From positions 1-30,521 of IMG/VR virus record IMGVR_UViG_3300025695_000068: 30,521 bases of DNA. One strand, given 5' to 3'. Positions within the stretch are counted from its first letter, which is position 1. Every line of letters begins with the position of its first letter. Source of the stretch: a virus. Shown piece by piece: positions 5,812 to 13,195 of the stretch. The notes under the pieces were generated by a model. The model was not told where the DNA came from. It saw nothing but the letters and a program-made list of their open reading frames with translations, and made no database searches. The translations under genes and the position numbers were made by a program.

Positions 5812-7709
5812 AAAACAATTACCTACCCACAGATTACCAAACATTTATTGCAACATCACGCTATGCCCGTTGGATTGAAGACGAAGGCAGACGTGAGACT
5901 TGGAACGAAACAGTTGCAAGATTTATGAAAAACATCGTAGAGCCTAGCGGCATTGACAGCAAGGACATCAAAGCTATTGAAGAAGCCATCCTCTCATTAG
6001 AAGTCATGCCCTCTATGCGAGCCTTGATGACTGCTGGTCCAGCCGCAGAACGTGACAACACTTGTGTGTACAACTGTAGCTACCTGCCTGTTGACCACCC
6101 ACGTGCCTTTGACGAGGCTATGTTTATCCTGCTGTGTGGTACAGGTGTAGGGTTCTCTGTCGAGCGTCAAGCTATCAGCAAGTTACCAACAGTACCAGAA
6201 GACCTACAGGATGTAGAAGACATCATCGTAATACAAGACAGCAAAGAAGGCTGGGCTAAAGGACTACGTAAACTTATCTCATTCTTGTATGCAGGTGAAG
6301 TACCGAAGTGGGATGTGTCAAAGATTCGTCCTGCTGGCGCACGTCTGAAAACATTTGGTGGTCGTGCCTCTGGACCTGACCCATTGAATGACCTGTTCAA
6401 CTTTACTGTTGCCAAGTTCCGTGGAGCAGCTGGTCGTAAGCTGTCCAGCATTGAGTGCCATGACATCATGTGTAAGATTGGCGAGGTTGTAGTTGTTGGT
6501 GGTGTAAGACGTAGTGCTATGATTAGCCTGTCCAACCTATCTGATGACCGTATGCGTCACGCCAAGTCAGGTCAGTGGTGGGAGAATGAAGGGCAACGTG
6601 CATTGGCTAACAACTCTGTTGCCTACACTGAGAAGCCTGACATGGAAACATTCCTGCGTGAGTGGACTGCTCTCGTAGAATCTAAGTCTGGTGAGCGTGG
6701 TCTGTTCAGCCGTGATGCGGCAGACAAACACGTGGCACGTAGTGGTCGTAGAGATACTGGTCACGAGTGGGGTACAAATCCATGCAGTGAAATCATCCTA
6801 CGTCCCTACCAGTTCTGTAACCTGACAGAGGTTGTGGTACGTCCAACTGACACAGAACGTACACTTGCTAAAAAGATTCGGCTTGCTACTATTCTAGGAA
6901 CAATCCAATCTACATTTACTAACCTACCATACTTGCGTCCTATCTGGCGTAAGAACACAGAAGAAGAAAGGCTGTTGGGTGTAAGCCTAACTGGAATTAT
7001 GGACAATGAAATCACTAGTAAACCTACTGAGAAAATGCTGGAGAAGCTTCGTGGTATATCTGTACAGACTAACAGGGAGATTGCAGAGCAGCTTGGAATT
7101 AATCAATCTGCGTCCATCACCTGCGTCAAGCCTTCTGGTACTGTATCACAGCTTGTTGATAGTGCCAGCGGCATCCATGCTCGCCATAGCGACTACTATA
7201 TCCGTACTGTACGGGGTGATAACAAAGACCCTCTCACGCAATTCCTAACGGATGCAGGTGTACCAGCCGAGCCTTGTGTAATGAAGCCTGATAGCACAAC
7301 TGTCTTCAGCTTCCCTACCAAGTCACCTGATGGTGCTGTCACACGTAACGACATGTCAGCTATCGAACAGCTAGAGTTGTGGAAGATGTACGCCCTGAAC
7401 TGGTGTGAACACAAACCATCTGTCACCATCACTGTCCGTGAGGAAGAGTGGATGAAGGTTGGTGCATGGGTATACGATAACTTCGACATCTGTTCTGGCG
7501 TGTCGTTCCTACCACATAGCGACCACACATATGCACAAGCCCCTTATCAGGACTGTGATAAAGAGACATATGAAGAAGCACTATCCAAGATGCCAAAGGC
7601 TATTGACTGGACACAGCTTGCCGCTTACGAGGTAGAAGATAACACGGCTGGGTCACAAACTCTTGCCTGTTCTGGAGACTCCTGTGAGATTGTGGACATC
7701 AACGCATAA
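5808..7709 (+). CDS. nrdJ: Adenosylcobalamin-dependent (class II) ribonucleotide reductase
   Basis: Makes deoxyribonucleotides from ribonucleotides using a B12-generated thiyl radical. In 633 residues, NPCSEI holds C326 (thiyl site) and E328, with C337 exactly 11 residues later, matching C408/E410/C419 of the Lactobacillus leichmannii enzyme; N324 also fits. An N-terminal pair region NTCVYNCSYLP (C86/C90) supplies one reducing cysteine, and the C-terminus ends in CSGDSC (C621/C626), the shuttle pair. GTGVGFSVER and KPSGTVSQLVDSASG are further signatures. It resembles the monomeric triphosphate-type enzyme of marine phages, though shorter than the 739-residue bacterial protein. It needs host cobalamin and no oxygen or second subunit. 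Last gene of the first operon; promoter P2 follows at once. Confidence 0.96.
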   Translation: MKNNYLPTDYQTFIATSRYARWIEDEGRRETWNETVARFMKNIVEPSGIDSKDIKAIEEAILSLEVMPSMRALMTAGPAAERDNTCVYNCSYLPVDHPRAFDEAMFILLCGTGVGFSVERQAISKLPTVPEDLQDVEDIIVIQDSKEGWAKGLRKLISFLYAGEVPKWDVSKIRPAGARLKTFGGRASGPDPLNDLFNFTVAKFRGAAGRKLSSIECHDIMCKIGEVVVVGGVRRSAMISLSNLSDDRMRHAKSGQWWENEGQRALANNSVAYTEKPDMETFLREWTALVESKSGERGLFSRDAADKHVARSGRRDTGHEWGTNPCSEIILRPYQFCNLTEVVVRPTDTERTLAKKIRLATILGTIQSTFTNLPYLRPIWRKNTEEERLLGVSLTGIMDNEITSKPTEKMLEKLRGISVQTNREIAEQLGINQSASITCVKPSGTVSQLVDSASGIHARHSDYYIRTVRGDNKDPLTQFLTDAGVPAEPCVMKPDSTTVFSFPTKSPDGAVTRNDMSAIEQLELWKMYALNWCEHKPSVTITVREEEWMKVGAWVYDNFDICSGVSFLPHSDHTYAQAPYQDCDKETYEEALSKMPKAIDWTQLAAYEVEDNTAGSQTLACSGDSCEIVDINA

Positions 7710-7717
7710 AAAAGTTG

Positions 7718-7746
7718 TTGACATTGATGTAATAATTTAGTATAAT
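7718..7746 (+). promoter_or_regulatory. Consensus sigma70 promoter P2
   Basis: TTGACA (7718-7723), exactly 17 bases, TATAAT (7741-7746): a perfect match to the bacterial consensus. AAAAAAGTTGTTGACATT (7708-7725) is identical to the P1 core, including the A-tract, which here also overlaps the end of the RNR stop codon. The predicted start lies at about 7752-7753, the first base of a strong hairpin. It should drive the 55-aa gene and the sugar/terminase block. Confidence 0.9.
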
Positions 7747-7751
7747 TATAG

Positions 7752-7819
7752 TGGTAGTAGGCTTGTACCTCCTTTCTTCTCCTCTCTCACTTGCCTACTA
7801 CCATTTAATTTAACAGGAG
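7752..7819 (+). promoter_or_regulatory. 5' leader: 10-11 bp hairpin with anti-Shine-Dalgarno loop, then ribosome site
   Basis: GGTAGTAGGC (7753-7762) pairs perfectly with GCCTACTACC (7793-7802); T7752-A7803 extends it. The 30-base loop is almost purely pyrimidine from 7767 on and contains ACCTCCTTTCT (7767-7777), the same as the 3' tail of alphaproteobacterial 16S rRNA. A second CTCCT lies at 7779-7783. The ribosome site AGGAG (7815-7819), seven bases before ATG 7826, could pair with the loop and form a pseudoknot. Role inferred: translation control or a decoy; the pairing itself is seen in the sequence. Confidence 0.65.
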
Positions 7820-7825
7820 TTTATT

Positions 7826-7993
7826 ATGAACGACAACGAACAGTTATTTACATTTAGTTTTACAGAAGAAGAGATGGGTGTCATTATGTATTGTTTGGGT
7901 GAAGCCCCTGCACGCATGACCACTGACCTTATTAATCGCATCAACGAAGAAGGCGCAGAGCAAAAAGAAAAGTATGCTGATGCTGAACAATAA
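7826..7993 (+). CDS. Small hypothetical protein (55 aa)
   Basis: First gene after P2 and its structured leader, so it may be strongly expressed. Ribosome site AGGAG at 7815-7819. The acidic protein reads MNDNEQLFTFSFTEEEMGVI at the start and ends in a charged helix (LINRINEEGAEQKEKY). The spacing of hydrophobics suggests a short beta hairpin followed by two helices. No family recognised. It overlaps the next gene by 20 bases. Its position at the head of the sugar/terminase operon makes a regulatory role possible, but nothing in the sequence shows one. Confidence 0.7.
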   Translation: MNDNEQLFTFSFTEEEMGVIMYCLGEAPARMTTDLINRINEEGAEQKEKYADAEQ

Positions 7994-8753
7994 GAAACCT
8001 ACAATCTACATTGGATATGACCCTCGTGACCATCAGGCTTACGAGGTTCTCGTCCATTCAATTCAGAAGTATTGCGACAAGTTTCCTATTGTCCCTTTAC
8101 TAGAACCTGCGCTACGCCGTGCTGGTTTGTATCGTAGAACGATTGTTGTAGACCAGCGCAATCCCACACAGAAGGTTGACTTCTTTGACCGCCGCCCCTT
8201 CAGCACAGACTTTACATTCACACGCTTCCTTGTACCAGCCCTGAACCAGTACTCTGGTCTTGCTTTGTTCATGGATGCAGACATGTTTGTACGTGCAGAC
8301 ATTGAACAGATATTTGATGTGTATGGTACACGTAAGGAATATGCTATCTCCTGTGTCAAGCACGACTACGTACCTACAGCTAAGAAGAAGATGGATGGAG
8401 TTGAGCAGACAATCTACCACCGAAAGAACTGGTCTAGCTTTATGCTATTCAACTGTGACCACGAGAAGACCCGTGAACTTACTGTTGATGATGTCAACCT
8501 AAAGACAGGTGGCTGGTTACACAAGCTATCATGGCTAATGGATGACGAGATTGGTTCTATTCATGAGGAGTGGAACTGGTTAGATGGACACAGCCCTATG
8601 CACACAGAGGCAAAGAACGTACACTTTACTACGGGTGGTCCTTGGTTTGATAACTGGAAACCTAAAAGAAAAATAGATGAGGAGTACGCATTTGAATGGA
8701 AACTCTTTCAAGATAAAATATATACAGAACATTTAATGGAGTCACTAGGATAA
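7974..8753 (+). CDS. GT8-like glycosyltransferase
   Basis: Retaining-type nucleotide-sugar glycosyltransferase. The 259 residues begin PTIYIGYDPRDHQAYEVL, the donor-binding start of a GT-A fold, and carry a DxD metal motif in ALFMDADMFV (D101-A-D103). FSTDFTFTRFLVPAL precedes it as in GT8 enzymes, RKNWSSFMLFNC follows, and HFTTGGPWFDNW (217-228) stands where GT8 proteins have their HxxGxxKPW element. Donor and acceptor are unknown. Start could be ATG 7974 or 7980; both overlap the preceding gene. Its stop shares TAATG with the next gene, a large sugar-modifying fusion, so the two likely act on the same glycan. Confidence 0.85.
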   Translation: MLMLNNKKPTIYIGYDPRDHQAYEVLVHSIQKYCDKFPIVPLLEPALRRAGLYRRTIVVDQRNPTQKVDFFDRRPFSTDFTFTRFLVPALNQYSGLALFMDADMFVRADIEQIFDVYGTRKEYAISCVKHDYVPTAKKKMDGVEQTIYHRKNWSSFMLFNCDHEKTRELTVDDVNLKTGGWLHKLSWLMDDEIGSIHEEWNWLDGHSPMHTEAKNVHFTTGGPWFDNWKPKRKIDEEYAFEWKLFQDKIYTEHLMESLG

Positions 8754-11026
8754 TGTACACATTCGTAACCACATTTAATAAGAAGCACTACGACCTATAT
8801 GCAAAGCAGATGTTGGAATCTGTTGTTGAAAACTTTGACCCGTCTATGCGGCTGGTCGTATACTATGATGGTTATGGATGTCAGCCTTACGATAAACCAG
8901 ATGCGCCAGAGGCAGACTTTATTGAGTATCGTAACCTTGACCTACTAAAAGCACGCAATGATTTCATTGAACGCAACAAGGATAAGAATGGTAGCTTTGC
9001 TGAAGCACCCTACAACTACAAGATGGATGCTGTTCGCTTCTGTCACAAGGTGTATGCCTATACTGACCTAGCCTATGAACTCATCGACCAAGAATATAAT
9101 GGCTGGCTTGTATGGCTTGATGCAGATACGCTTGTCAATCAGAAGTTTACAGCAGAAGATGCACAGAAGATTATGCCTGATACAGCAGACGTAGTACACC
9201 TTGGTCGTATCGACATTGACTACAGCGAGACAGGCTTTGTTGGTTGGAATATGGCTATGCACAATGCGGTATCATTTATTGTAGATATTCGTGGAGCATA
9301 CGACACCAATGAAATATTTGGTTATCGTGAGTGGACAGATTCATTTGTATTCGAGAGACTACTTAACATCTATAAAGCACACGGAATGAAAGCATTAAAC
9401 CTATCAGAAGGTGTGCGTGGTCTAGCCGTGTTCGAGAACTCCATATTGAAAGATTACTTTACACATAACAAAGGTAACTTAAAGTACAACTCACAAGTAT
9501 CTCCAGACGTACAAGGACCACAAAGATATAAGCAGTTAGCTGACATTGTTCGCCATTACTCTAAAGGATTAGAGACATACTCTATCGTAGAGACAGGTAC
9601 ATGGAATGGTGGTCGTGCTATTGAGATGGCTCTTGCTGCATTTCAGAATGTAGACAAGGTACACTATCGTGGCTTTGATTTGTTTGAGAACGCTACGGAA
9701 GAGACGGATAAGGTAGAACTTAATATCAAGAAGCATAATGCAGAAGAAGCTGTAGGTACACGCCTTGCACAGTTTGCTGCAAAGATGCAAGAGGTTGGAA
9801 AATTGTTTACCTTTACCTTACATTCTGGTGACACCAAAGATACAATGAAGGGACACAAATACAATGATGTGGATTTGGCTTATATTGATGGTGGTCACTC
9901 TTATGACACAGTTCGTAGCGATTGGGACTATCTTTCTAATGTCCCAGTTGTTGTATTTGACGATTATTATTCTTTCCCAGATGGGGATGTACCCGAAGAA
10001 TACAGAGGAATAATTAAAGTCTTTGAAGATATTAAAGATAAGAACAGATATATCCTACCTTCTGACGACAAGACTGCATTAGGCGGTGTCGTACATCTTG
10101 CGGCTGTAGTAGACCCCTCAGTAGGTTCGCTTCCTGACGAACTAATCCGTAGACCTATCGTTGTCAAGCCAAAAGACTGCGTACCTTCTGACTATATCAT
10201 CAACAACATCAAGACAAACGTAAAGAATATTGAAGACTACTCATGGGTCAAACATTACAAACACACAGACCGACACGTAGCTGTTGTATCTGGGGGTGAC
10301 ATAGACTTCGAGGCGTTTGATAACTTCATACAGGAACATCCTGATGCTCTAGTGTGGTGTGTTAAACACGCATATCCCAAACTAATACAGCACGGAACAA
10401 TTCCTGATGCCTGTTTAGTACTAGACCCACGCCCCGTAGAAGGCGTAAGTACACACGGCGTTGTACGTAAGAACCTATTCAAGAACATCCAGAAGCAAAC
10501 CACATTCTACATTGCATCTATGACTGACCCATCTGTTGTTGAATACATCATGAGCAAGACAGATAACATACGTGGCTTCCATGCTTTCACGGGAGGCATC
10601 GTAGACCCAGAAGTAAAAAACCGTATGCAAATCCTAAAGGGTATCGGTATTGAAGAAGGTGAGTTGCTTATCTCTGGTGGTACTGGAGCAGCGACTCGCA
10701 TCATCGGTATGCTGGAGACATTAGGTTATCGTAACCTACATCTCTTTGGCTTTGACTGTAGCATCAACAACCTAACAGACGAGCAGAAAGAAGAGAAGAC
10801 TGAAGAAGGTCAACCTACATACCTACACGTTGAGACAGGTGGTAAGAAATTCTGGACAACTGGAGAGTTGCTTGCTATGGCACAAGACCTAGAGAAGATG
10901 TTTGAGAAAAACAATCTTGAACTTAACATCAGGTTCTACGGTAAAGATAGTCTTGCCTTACAGATATGGGAGCAATCCTACTACAATACTCAGTTTAAAA
11001 CCTATGAGGAAAGCTTGAATGAATGA
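8753..11026 (+). CDS. Three-domain fusion: glycosyltransferase + methyltransferase + DUF115/MptE-like
   Basis: A 757-residue protein. Residues 1 to about 245 are a GT-A-like glycosyltransferase: MYTFVTTFNKKHYDLYAKQM start, DxD at 123-125 (WLVWLDADTLV), FVGWNMAMHN later. Residues about 265-455 form a SAM methyltransferase of the Methyltransf_24 type: motif I VETGTWNGGRA (279-289) and DLAYIDGGHSYDTVRSDW (374-391), then VVVFDDYY. Residues about 505-735 resemble DUF115, a family covering MptE and Maf flagellin-glycosylation proteins: VVSGG, VLDPRP, SGGTGAATRIIGMLETLGY and LHLFGFDCS. It starts in a TAATG overlap with the GT8-like gene. Inferred role: build, methylate and transfer a sugar. There is no stop or frame break between domains, so this is one chain. 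Confidence 0.85.
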   Translation: MYTFVTTFNKKHYDLYAKQMLESVVENFDPSMRLVVYYDGYGCQPYDKPDAPEADFIEYRNLDLLKARNDFIERNKDKNGSFAEAPYNYKMDAVRFCHKVYAYTDLAYELIDQEYNGWLVWLDADTLVNQKFTAEDAQKIMPDTADVVHLGRIDIDYSETGFVGWNMAMHNAVSFIVDIRGAYDTNEIFGYREWTDSFVFERLLNIYKAHGMKALNLSEGVRGLAVFENSILKDYFTHNKGNLKYNSQVSPDVQGPQRYKQLADIVRHYSKGLETYSIVETGTWNGGRAIEMALAAFQNVDKVHYRGFDLFENATEETDKVELNIKKHNAEEAVGTRLAQFAAKMQEVGKLFTFTLHSGDTKDTMKGHKYNDVDLAYIDGGHSYDTVRSDWDYLSNVPVVVFDDYYSFPDGDVPEEYRGIIKVFEDIKDKNRYILPSDDKTALGGVVHLAAVVDPSVGSLPDELIRRPIVVKPKDCVPSDYIINNIKTNVKNIEDYSWVKHYKHTDRHVAVVSGGDIDFEAFDNFIQEHPDALVWCVKHAYPKLIQHGTIPDACLVLDPRPVEGVSTHGVVRKNLFKNIQKQTTFYIASMTDPSVVEYIMSKTDNIRGFHAFTGGIVDPEVKNRMQILKGIGIEEGELLISGGTGAATRIIGMLETLGYRNLHLFGFDCSINNLTDEQKEEKTEEGQPTYLHVETGGKKFWTTGELLAMAQDLEKMFEKNNLELNIRFYGKDSLALQIWEQSYYNTQFKTYEESLNE

Positions 11027-11471
11027 CCTAAAAGAGAGACAGGAAAAGTTTTGTCAGAACTATGTGTTAAGTCGTAACGCTACAAAGGCTGCGTTAGCTG
11101 CTGGATATAGTGAGCGTTCTGCACACAACACTGGCTATCGTCTTCTTCAGGAAGAAAAAATAAAAGACAGGCTAAAAGAATTAGAGGGTGAGATTGTCAC
11201 AGACATTGACGTTATTGCAGAACTAGAACAGCAATACGAGACAGCAAAGATGAATGGCAATGGGCAGACAGCATTGAAAGCCCTTGAACTACTAGCTCGT
11301 GCTAGAGGTAATAATGTAGAAGACGATATGCCTACCGATATGGATAGCCTAGAAGATGCTATCAAAAATAATATGTACATCATCGGCAAAGAAAAGATGT
11401 ATGAGTTATTTATGGCTACCTTCCCTGAAGACTTTGAGGAAGAAGAGGAAGAAGAACATGTCGAACAATAA
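11019..11471 (+). CDS. Terminase small subunit
   Basis: DNA-recognition subunit of the packaging motor. The N-terminal helix-turn-helix region [29 protein letters not shown]...A is the classic Terminase_2 start (KQxKFxxxYLxxxNATxAAxxAGYS). A central coiled coil follows ([30 protein letters not shown]), and the C-terminus is strongly acidic ([11 protein letters not shown]), which usually contacts the large subunit or portal. 150 residues is normal. Overlaps the fusion gene by 8 bases and gmd by 14. Its place among sugar genes is odd; no large subunit is in the window. A rather long poly-Glu stretch at DNA level also supplies the purine-rich ribosome site for gmd. Confidence 0.92.
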
Positions 11472-12492
11472 GACAGCATTTATAACAGGCATCACGGGAC
11501 AGGACGGGGGCTATCTAGCAGACCTTTTACTTGATAGAGGGTATGAGGTACATGCACTACGAAGACGTACTGCTGGGGCAAATCTGGGGCGTATAGAGCA
11601 TATACTAAAACACCCTAACCTACACCTACATTACGGGGATTTGACTGACACTGGCTGTCTGATGAAGTTGTTTGCTACCTACAAGTTTGATGAGGTATAC
11701 AATCTTGGCGCACAGTCCCATGTTCGTGTATCATTTGACGTACCAGAATACACAGCAGATGTGGACGGACTAGGCACACTACGTTTACTAGAGTGTATCC
11801 GTACTCTTGGACTAGAAAGCCACACTAAATTCTATCAGGCATCTACATCAGAACTATATGGTAAGGTACAGGCTACACCACAAGATGAGAACACACCCTT
11901 TTACCCACGTTCTCCTTATGGTGTTGCTAAATTGTTCTCCTTCTGGACTGTAAAGAATTACCGTGAGTCCTATGGCATACACGCATCCAATGGTATCTTG
12001 TTCAACCACGAATCCCCGTGGCGTGGTAGTGAGTTTGTTACACAGAAGATAGTACAAGGTGCTGTCAATATAGCAAAACAAAAGGAAGATAAGTTAAGTC
12101 TTGGTAATCTGGATGCACTACGTGACTGGGGACACGCCAAAGATTATGTCGAAGGTATGTGGCTTATGACACAGCAGGATAAGGGTGACGACTATGTACT
12201 AGCTACTGGTGAGATGCACTCTGTCCGTGAGTTAGTAGAGATGTGCTTCAAAGAATGTAATATGTACATCAGATGGGAAGGAGAAGGACAGGACGAAAAA
12301 GGATACGACCAACACGACAATCTAGTAGTAGATATTAACCCAGAATTTTATAGACCAGCAGAGGTTGACCTGCTTGTAGGTGACGCTACCAAAGCAAAAG
12401 AACTTCTTGGATGGAAACCAAAGTACACATTTGAAACAATGATAAAAGAAATGATAGATGAGTACATAAATAATGATGCAGCTAGATTGTAA
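11458..12492 (+). CDS. gmd: GDP-mannose 4,6-dehydratase
   Basis: Converts GDP-D-mannose to GDP-4-keto-6-deoxy-D-mannose, the precursor of GDP-fucose, GDP-rhamnose and related sugars. The 344 residues are typical in length. NAD(P)-binding GITGQDG (11-17), the catalytic triad region STSELYGK (S/T129-130, E132), and YGVAK (Y154, K158) are intact, as is [12 protein letters not shown] and [15 protein letters not shown] 11458 is chosen; a longer frame from 11356 would lie wholly in the terminase gene and add a non-family N-terminus. The ribosome site is the GAGGAAGAAG stretch in the terminase tail. No fucose synthase or reductase follows in the window, so a host enzyme or another gene would have to finish the sugar. 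Confidence 0.97.
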
Positions 12493-13195
12493 TAACAAAC
12501 ACATCGTGCTGGTAGGTAACAGCATAGATTCCCTGACAAAGAAACAGGGCAAAGAGATTGATAACTTCGATATAGTTGTACGTTTTGGTAAGGGTGTACC
12601 GACAGGACGTGAGGAATATATAGGCAGTCGTACAGACATCTGGGCTACTGGTTCACTACGTAGTAAGATGCGTGACCAATATCCAGAAGATACAAAGGTA
12701 TTATACAATCCTTCCTGCTTCACATATCTTGAAGAGTATCCAGACTACGAACACACTGTTATGTTCACGCCATCTGAACTTGAATATATACATTCAGATT
12801 ATTTGAACTCTTACACACCGAACACCGACCAAAGAAAAAGACTGTCAATCGGTTTACTGACAGCCCTATACTTCTGTACAAAAGTAAATACCTTTGCATC
12901 ATTAACATTTATTAACTTTGATTTCTTTCATAAGGGTACAAAGTTTAAAGACGAGATGCACGACAAAGAATCTGTAGCTACTAGCTGGCATCTACCTCTT
13001 GCTGTCCCACAGTTTGAAGACAAAGAAGATGCACTACGTAACCACCCATCACACGACTCACAACAAGAAAAGAAAATCGTACAGTCGTTACTATACAATC
13101 GTAATGATATTTATTTTATTGGGGATATTGCTCCAGAATATTCTTATGAAGATGTATCGGAACTAGCTTTCGACAAGTACCGTAAACCTATCTAA
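12473..13195 (+). CDS. GT29 (sialyltransferase)-like glycosyltransferase
   Basis: 240 residues with the ordered motifs of GT29. A sialylmotif-L-like stretch occupies about 10-55: [41 protein letters not shown] motif-S-like stretch lies at 124-150: [19 protein letters not shown] motif-VS-like HxxxxE is HDSQQE (194-199). Family enzymes transfer sialic acid from CMP-sialic acid; relatives in bacteria and phages may use other donors or have lost that use. It overlaps gmd by 20 bases and is the last + strand gene. The Cys pair that joins motifs L and S in animal enzymes is not evident. No CMP-sialate synthesis gene is in the window, so the donor is open. Confidence 0.75.

Follow-up and report, generated by a model that had tools for sequence, protein, structure and literature searches.

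A conserved hairpin leader with a pyrimidine-rich loop before a phage glycosyltransferase operon

The leader and its operon

We describe a leader in a virus genome from IMG/VR (record IMGVR_UViG_3300025695_000068). The window, by which we mean the whole stretch of DNA that was analysed, is 30,521 nt long, and the leader occupies positions 7752-7819 on its + strand, with its features and those of the operon behind it collected in Table 1. The promoter in front of the leader was originally predicted to be a perfect sigma70 site, and it does match the consensus at 12 of 12 positions; within 5-12 kb it is the sole promoter to do so. The spacing to the -10 element places the predicted start of transcription at about 7752-7754, which would make the hairpin 5'-terminal. 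The stem is free of mismatches and grows to 13 pairs when 7750-7751 and 7804-7805 are included (the outer pairs being A-U and G-U). On the sequence, the stem, the loop, ACCTCCTTTCT and AGGAG all lie exactly where the prediction had placed them.

Table 1. Coordinates of the leader and of the operon genes in the window
Feature	Position	Strand	Basis or remark
sigma70-type promoter	7718-7746	+	12/12 consensus: TTGACA 7718-7723, 17-nt spacer, TATAAT 7741-7746
Leader stem, 5' arm	7752-7762 (to 7750 when extended)	+	sequence and folding
Leader stem, 3' arm	7793-7803 (to 7805 when extended)	+	sequence, folding, covariation
Pyrimidine loop, 30 nt, single-stranded	7763-7792	+	folding; core unpaired probability 1.00
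ACCTCCTTTCT, exact copy of the alphaproteobacterial 16S rRNA 3' tail (anti-Shine-Dalgarno)	7767-7777	+	
Shine-Dalgarno (SD) AGGAG of the first operon gene	7815-7819	+	open in the predicted fold
55-aa ORF	7826-7993	+	first operon ATG at 7826; homologs follow the leader in some lineages only
Glycosyltransferase 8-like protein	7974-8753	+	first constant gene past the leader
Large protein	8753-11026	+	methyltransferase and MptE-like domains
Terminase small subunit	11019-11471	+	
GDP-mannose 4,6-dehydratase	11356-12492	+	listed ORF begins upstream; domain from ~residue 42
Glycosyltransferase family 29-like protein	12473-13195	+	near the end of the + strand block

Pyrimidines fill 27 of the 30 loop positions (90%; binomial p ~4e-6). 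The claim that this loop copies the tail of 16S rRNA holds: the match of ACCTCCTTTCT is exact, and the tail position was confirmed in two genomes, where GGATCACCTCCTTTCT is the 3' end of the 16S rRNA (the pattern lies at 1501-1516, and the Rfam SSU model ends at 1514). The two genomes come from a set of 58 chosen by the class of a Sphingomonadales MAG, 9 of which contain the exact GGATCACCTCCTTTCT pattern; many genomes of the set are incomplete and may be without rRNA. Shuffling the loop, which keeps its composition, gives p ~0.001 for 11 bases that match the 16S tail.

How strongly does the hairpin itself stand out? Dinucleotide shuffling of the 90 nt behind the -10 element, repeated 1000 times, never produced an equally good hairpin just past the promoter, and the leaders reach hairpin scores of 17-23 while other promoters of the same loci score at most 8. 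The z-score of the minimum free energy of the whole leader is only -1.4, so that folding energy alone would miss the hairpin, which is revealed by covariation in relatives.

The 55-aa ORF is missing from leader-bearing records of 53-60 kb, and we thus assign the leader to the promoter and operon and not to this ORF. The same long genomes rule out autoregulation by the 55-aa protein. Used alone as a query, the 55-aa protein of the window gave no match; a profile search with this family returned the same contigs together with distant ORFs that have no leader.

Conservation among relatives

Relatives were collected through the glycosyltransferase gene (7974-8753), which gave 80 IMG/VR contigs, mostly fragments and with many near-copies, 79 of them with upstream sequence. 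When glycosyltransferase identity is at least 64%, promoter, hairpin, pyrimidine loop and SD follow each other in the same order in 51 of 52 contigs, with the same promoter in front of the leader; the lone exception (L025) has only 399 bp of upstream sequence and no promoter. The 27 more distant contigs divide into 18 that, at an identity of 63% or less, have the promoter and a short leader but no hairpin (L054-L062, L064-L072) and 9 with unrelated, weaker 5' hairpins. In a tree of the glycosyltransferase, the leader-bearing sequences form one supported branch (96/99). The leader always stands before the glycosyltransferase operon, in a single copy per genome. Since the 18 orthologs use the same promoter hairpin-free, the hairpin is not needed for expression of the glycosyltransferase.

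We built a covariance model (R1) from 11 leaders and searched 30 virus records with it: 15 of them, the window and records of 52-60 kb among them, contain a strong match on the correct strand, one per record. L366 and L367, which are contigs of L051 and L203, lie outside its building set and are recognised as well (E 0.002-0.005); they are the sole R1 matches in the 55-aa profile search. Searching Rfam at gathering and at relaxed thresholds gave no credible match to the leader, manA and wcaG included. The leader is a conserved phage RNA element that has strong covariation support and is absent from Rfam. The nearest known elements in setting are the manA and wcaG motifs, which are leaders of marine phages (PMC2864571). 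They resemble the present element as phage-borne structured leaders before sugar or exopolysaccharide genes, but the hairpin here is much simpler, a single one. A BLAST search of the leader against named phages gave short matches only, to promoter-like AT-rich stretches, and no isolate with the leader was found in it; glycosyltransferase homologs in named phages have at most 41% identity. The host can for these reasons only be inferred, and the leader phages are a marine group, probably with alphaproteobacterial hosts. In cellular genomes we find 10 pattern matches, close to the few expected by chance (our estimate from pattern size), and none of them has the leader; a hairpin in a Sphingomonadales MAG (L350), which sits after an ammonium-transporter-like gene, was discarded.

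The original prediction proposed to look in relatives for compensatory stem changes and for conservation of the loop. Compensatory changes are abundant. A first MAFFT alignment misaligned the stems. Covariation was counted over five lineages, which have ten distinct stems between them, with the arms anchored by hand and the spacer kept constant; this procedure leans towards the named structure, and shuffles and slid partners serve as its control. In this set 94.2% of cells are paired (71.0 +/- 2.6 in shuffles), 7 of 12 stem pairs have changed on both sides, and cells with two-sided change number 24, compared with 6.9 +/- 2.0 in shuffles. When the partner arm is slid, the pairing signal collapses. 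The R1 score of the + strand is 60.9 bits and that of the - strand 24.6 bits; this difference, along with G-U pairs on the + strand, indicates that what is conserved is a transcribed RNA. In every lineage the stem base lies 2-9 nt past the -10 element, and the predicted RNA should therefore begin at the helix or a few nucleotides from it (the L016 lineage probably has 2-3 unpaired 5' nucleotides). Sequence evidence supports a genuine leader that is conserved and structured and begins at the predicted start of transcription or close to it.

Conservation of the loop is of a different kind: the pyrimidine tract is kept, and the exact anti-SD is present only in part of the lineages. The loop is 21-30 nt long across lineages and C/U-rich, and its core has an unpaired probability of 0.93-1.00 across the folds of the variants, with the SD mostly open. 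The window, the L003 group and most members of the L022 group have the 9-mer CCTCCTTTC, which thus spans the deepest split in the leader clade and outlasts the divergence of the stems. Elsewhere less of it remains: AGTCCTTTCTCTC in the L016 group, TTCATTTCTCTC in L051 and CTCCATTTCTCTC in L203. CCTCC is absent from these lineages, which keep only a TTTCTCTC tract. The 9-mer also varies within the L022 group (L028, CCTCCTTCT; L326, CCTCCCTTCT). All loops in these alignments share a pyrimidine tract that is poor in G and has a TTTC/CTC core; the exact anti-SD is frequent in it and not universal, and its distribution fits one anti-SD origin followed by losses as well as two gains.

What the hairpin and its loop may do

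We tentatively favour a cis-acting role, to which we would give slightly less than an even chance: a 5'-terminal hairpin that shields the end of the mRNA and presents a pyrimidine docking site. The consensus promoter would start transcription at the stem base or within ~3 nt of it, so that the 5' triphosphate end would stack on a helix of 10-15 bp, and the stem would most likely serve to protect the mRNA against decay that depends on its 5' end (RppH, then RNase E). The long, G-poor loop would stay open, without pairing within the leader, and leave the short downstream SD unblocked. Its pyrimidine core (CCUCCUUUC and/or UUUCUCUC) would most likely dock a factor that binds pyrimidines (ribosomal protein S1, for instance, or some other RNA-binding protein), and the docked factor would favour translation despite the weak SD; the choice of partner is a guess. 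Of this account, we observe the position and structure of the hairpin, its covariation, the open loop, the distribution over lineages, the single copy and the weak SD; the parts that we infer are the transcription start, the stabilisation and the docking partner.

Stem-loops at the 5' end that stabilise mRNA are established in E. coli for ompA and papA (works cited in PMC3997798). The phage leader is like them in that its stem is predicted to open the transcript and precedes an SD left unpaired, and differs from them by its long conserved pyrimidine loop; its stabilising effect is putative. A pure stabiliser needs neither a loop of 20-30 nt nor a conserved CCUCCUUUC that outlasts stem divergence, and this counts against stabilisation as the whole function. 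Unrelated stems occupy the same place in two other glycosyltransferase lineages (L073, L080), and the 5' hairpin thus recurs whatever its sequence, which suggests that 5' hairpins were gained repeatedly before this operon.

A self-regulating switch through a pseudoknot of loop and SD was originally predicted. In such a switch, CUCCU of the loop would bind the AGGAG before the first gene and keep that gene silent until a ligand or the state of translation released it. The window does offer 5 bp of complementarity between loop and SD, and an H-type geometry is feasible with a 30-nt loop and an 11-nt linker. The relatives, however, speak against such a switch. The pairing of a loop with its own SD is no better than with the flanks of other lineages (at -6.9 kcal/mol, the window's own pairing is the weakest of its family-A row), the SD changes between AGGAG, TGGAG and TTGGAG without compensation in the loop, CCTCC is missing from the L016 and L051 lineages, and across the leader lineages we found no pairing of a loop with its own SD that is conserved or covaries. 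Genes behind a leader always have a short SD, which pairs with the 16S tail at -5.6 to -8.2 kcal/mol; the hairpin-less orthologs, by contrast, mostly have an extended GAAAGGAG or GAAAGG (-9.3 to -12.5 kcal/mol), and an extended GAAAGGAG would be fully complementary to the loop. The short SDs look like avoidance of loop-SD pairing, possibly through one evolutionary split. With the SD short beside the leader and extended in its hairpin-less relatives, loop and SD show no co-adaptation, and we regard the cis switch as distinctly improbable. Scarcely better placed, and still improbable, is a transcriptional device, either an attenuator or antiterminator or a CU-rich, G-poor loop within a Rho-loading (rut) site that sets read-through. 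A rut site is usually ~80 nt of unstructured, C-rich, G-poor RNA; the loop is likewise C/U-rich and G-poor but, at 21-30 nt, far below that length. U-runs follow the stem in the L003 and L051 lineages and would suit a terminator, but they are absent in the window and in the L016 and L022 lineages and so are not conserved. The SD and start codon directly after the leader mean that translation should begin early, which also counts against this device. CU-rich tracts of a 5' UTR stem-loop are known to be able to act in Rho-dependent attenuation, as in E. coli cfa (PMC12691595); the phage leader shares the CU-rich tract within a 5' UTR stem-loop with cfa and differs in being short, with an immediate SD, a strong stem and a tract wholly in the loop.

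Action in trans is unlikely in our judgement, though it has a clear precedent. Here the leader, perhaps processed to a hairpin of 50 nt, would pair through CCUCCUUUC with host or phage SDs and repress or divert translation. In a form that we hold to be a shade less likely still, one transcript would both encode the operon and, with its copy of the 16S tail, compete with ribosomes for SDs, tuning host or phage translation. The exact 16S-tail copy in an open loop is what such a role would call for, as is the presence of CCTCCTTTC on both sides of the deepest split while stems diverge. The NfeR1-type sRNAs of alphaproteobacteria share this design, with constant anti-SD loops on divergent stems; they are defined by three hairpins, each with an ultraconserved CCUCCUCCC loop, and silence by pairing at initiation regions (PMC10746234). 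They belong to the cuckoo/alpha-r14 RNAs (NfeR1 of Sinorhizobium, CcsR RNAs of Rhodobacter), with which the leader has in common the presumed alphaproteobacterial setting, the divergent stems and the unpaired anti-SD loops. Unlike these three-hairpin trans sRNAs, the leader has one hairpin, carries CCUCCUUUC (the 16S tail itself) or a loop without CCUCC, and is fused to an mRNA. Hairpin number, motif and the lack of a separate transcript thus keep it out of the cuckoo/alpha-r14 family, although NfeR1 is its closest design and the leader may act in a similar mode. Against a trans RNA or the abundant decoy of the original prediction, the element forms the 5' end of an mRNA and has one copy per genome; looking for a separate transcript end, we found no conserved terminator, and every family-A leader is followed within ~25 nt by its SD and ORF. 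Moreover, the L016 and L051/L203 lineages have lost CCTCC, and no dedicated target is evident in the window, where the best pairing sites lie mostly inside genes. An ordinary promoter spacer, with a chance hairpin inherited by close relatives, has a vanishingly small probability: hairpin-less orthologs exist and the whole-leader z-score is modest, as this reading would have it, but covariation lies far above the shuffled and slid controls, the shuffles and the other promoters do not reach the leaders, and the compensatory stem changes refute it.

We prefer the shielding stem with a docking loop to the trans, transcriptional and pseudoknot readings on account of the predicted 5'-terminal position of the stem and of an anti-SD that appears not to be tuned to its own SD. 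The element brings together, in a single mRNA leader, a hairpin at the 5' end and a loop with an anti-SD, each of them an idea already known; if the loop acts on translation, a copy of the mRNA-binding tail of the ribosome would serve the phage as a regulatory part. The series of lineages with a full anti-SD, with a degraded anti-SD, and with no hairpin and an extended SD is a ready natural experiment.

Other promoter-hairpin leaders

Other phages also carry hairpins just past a strong promoter. Enclosed hairpins numbered 3 in 116 contexts for a purine control pattern and 23 in 66 for the pyrimidine-loop pattern, many of the 23 belonging to the family of the window's leader. The TCCTTTC loops of unrelated promoter-hairpin phages prove nothing, because the search pattern contained the loop.

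Five phages with a T4 sliding clamp-like protein (L084, L118, L123, L155, L184) have a perfect promoter and a TGGTGTTGGTGGT hairpin of 12-14 bp with loop TCCTTTCCTTTC, then an ORF of 71-75 aa and a further glycosyltransferase-like gene. The architecture is that of the window's leader, and the stem is unrelated. Distant lineages of the window's own glycosyltransferase operon carry 5' hairpins GAGGATAGT..ACTATCCTC (L073-L076, L078, L079) and AGGAAATA..TATTTCCT (L080-L082). Promoter-proximal hairpins of the form TGAGAGnGnGnG with loop TCCTTTCTT occur in L102, L128 and L159, where the stems covary and no start codon is nearby. Leaders of the form GGGCAG-tcttttttcctttctctt-CTGCCC (L089, L096, L108, L110, L117, L129, L140, L143, L145, L149, L192) allow an alternative pairing of GGGCAGT with a downstream ACTGCTC and are possibly two-state leaders before a 58-aa cysteine-rich protein. 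Finally, the window itself holds, in the stretch 1657-1735, a second strong promoter (TTGACA-17-TATACT), which has an 18-base block in common with the region 7708-7725 and is immediately followed by a small hairpin with a purine-rich loop (TTGCT-gcaagaggt-AGCAA), a T-run and an ORF at 1767.
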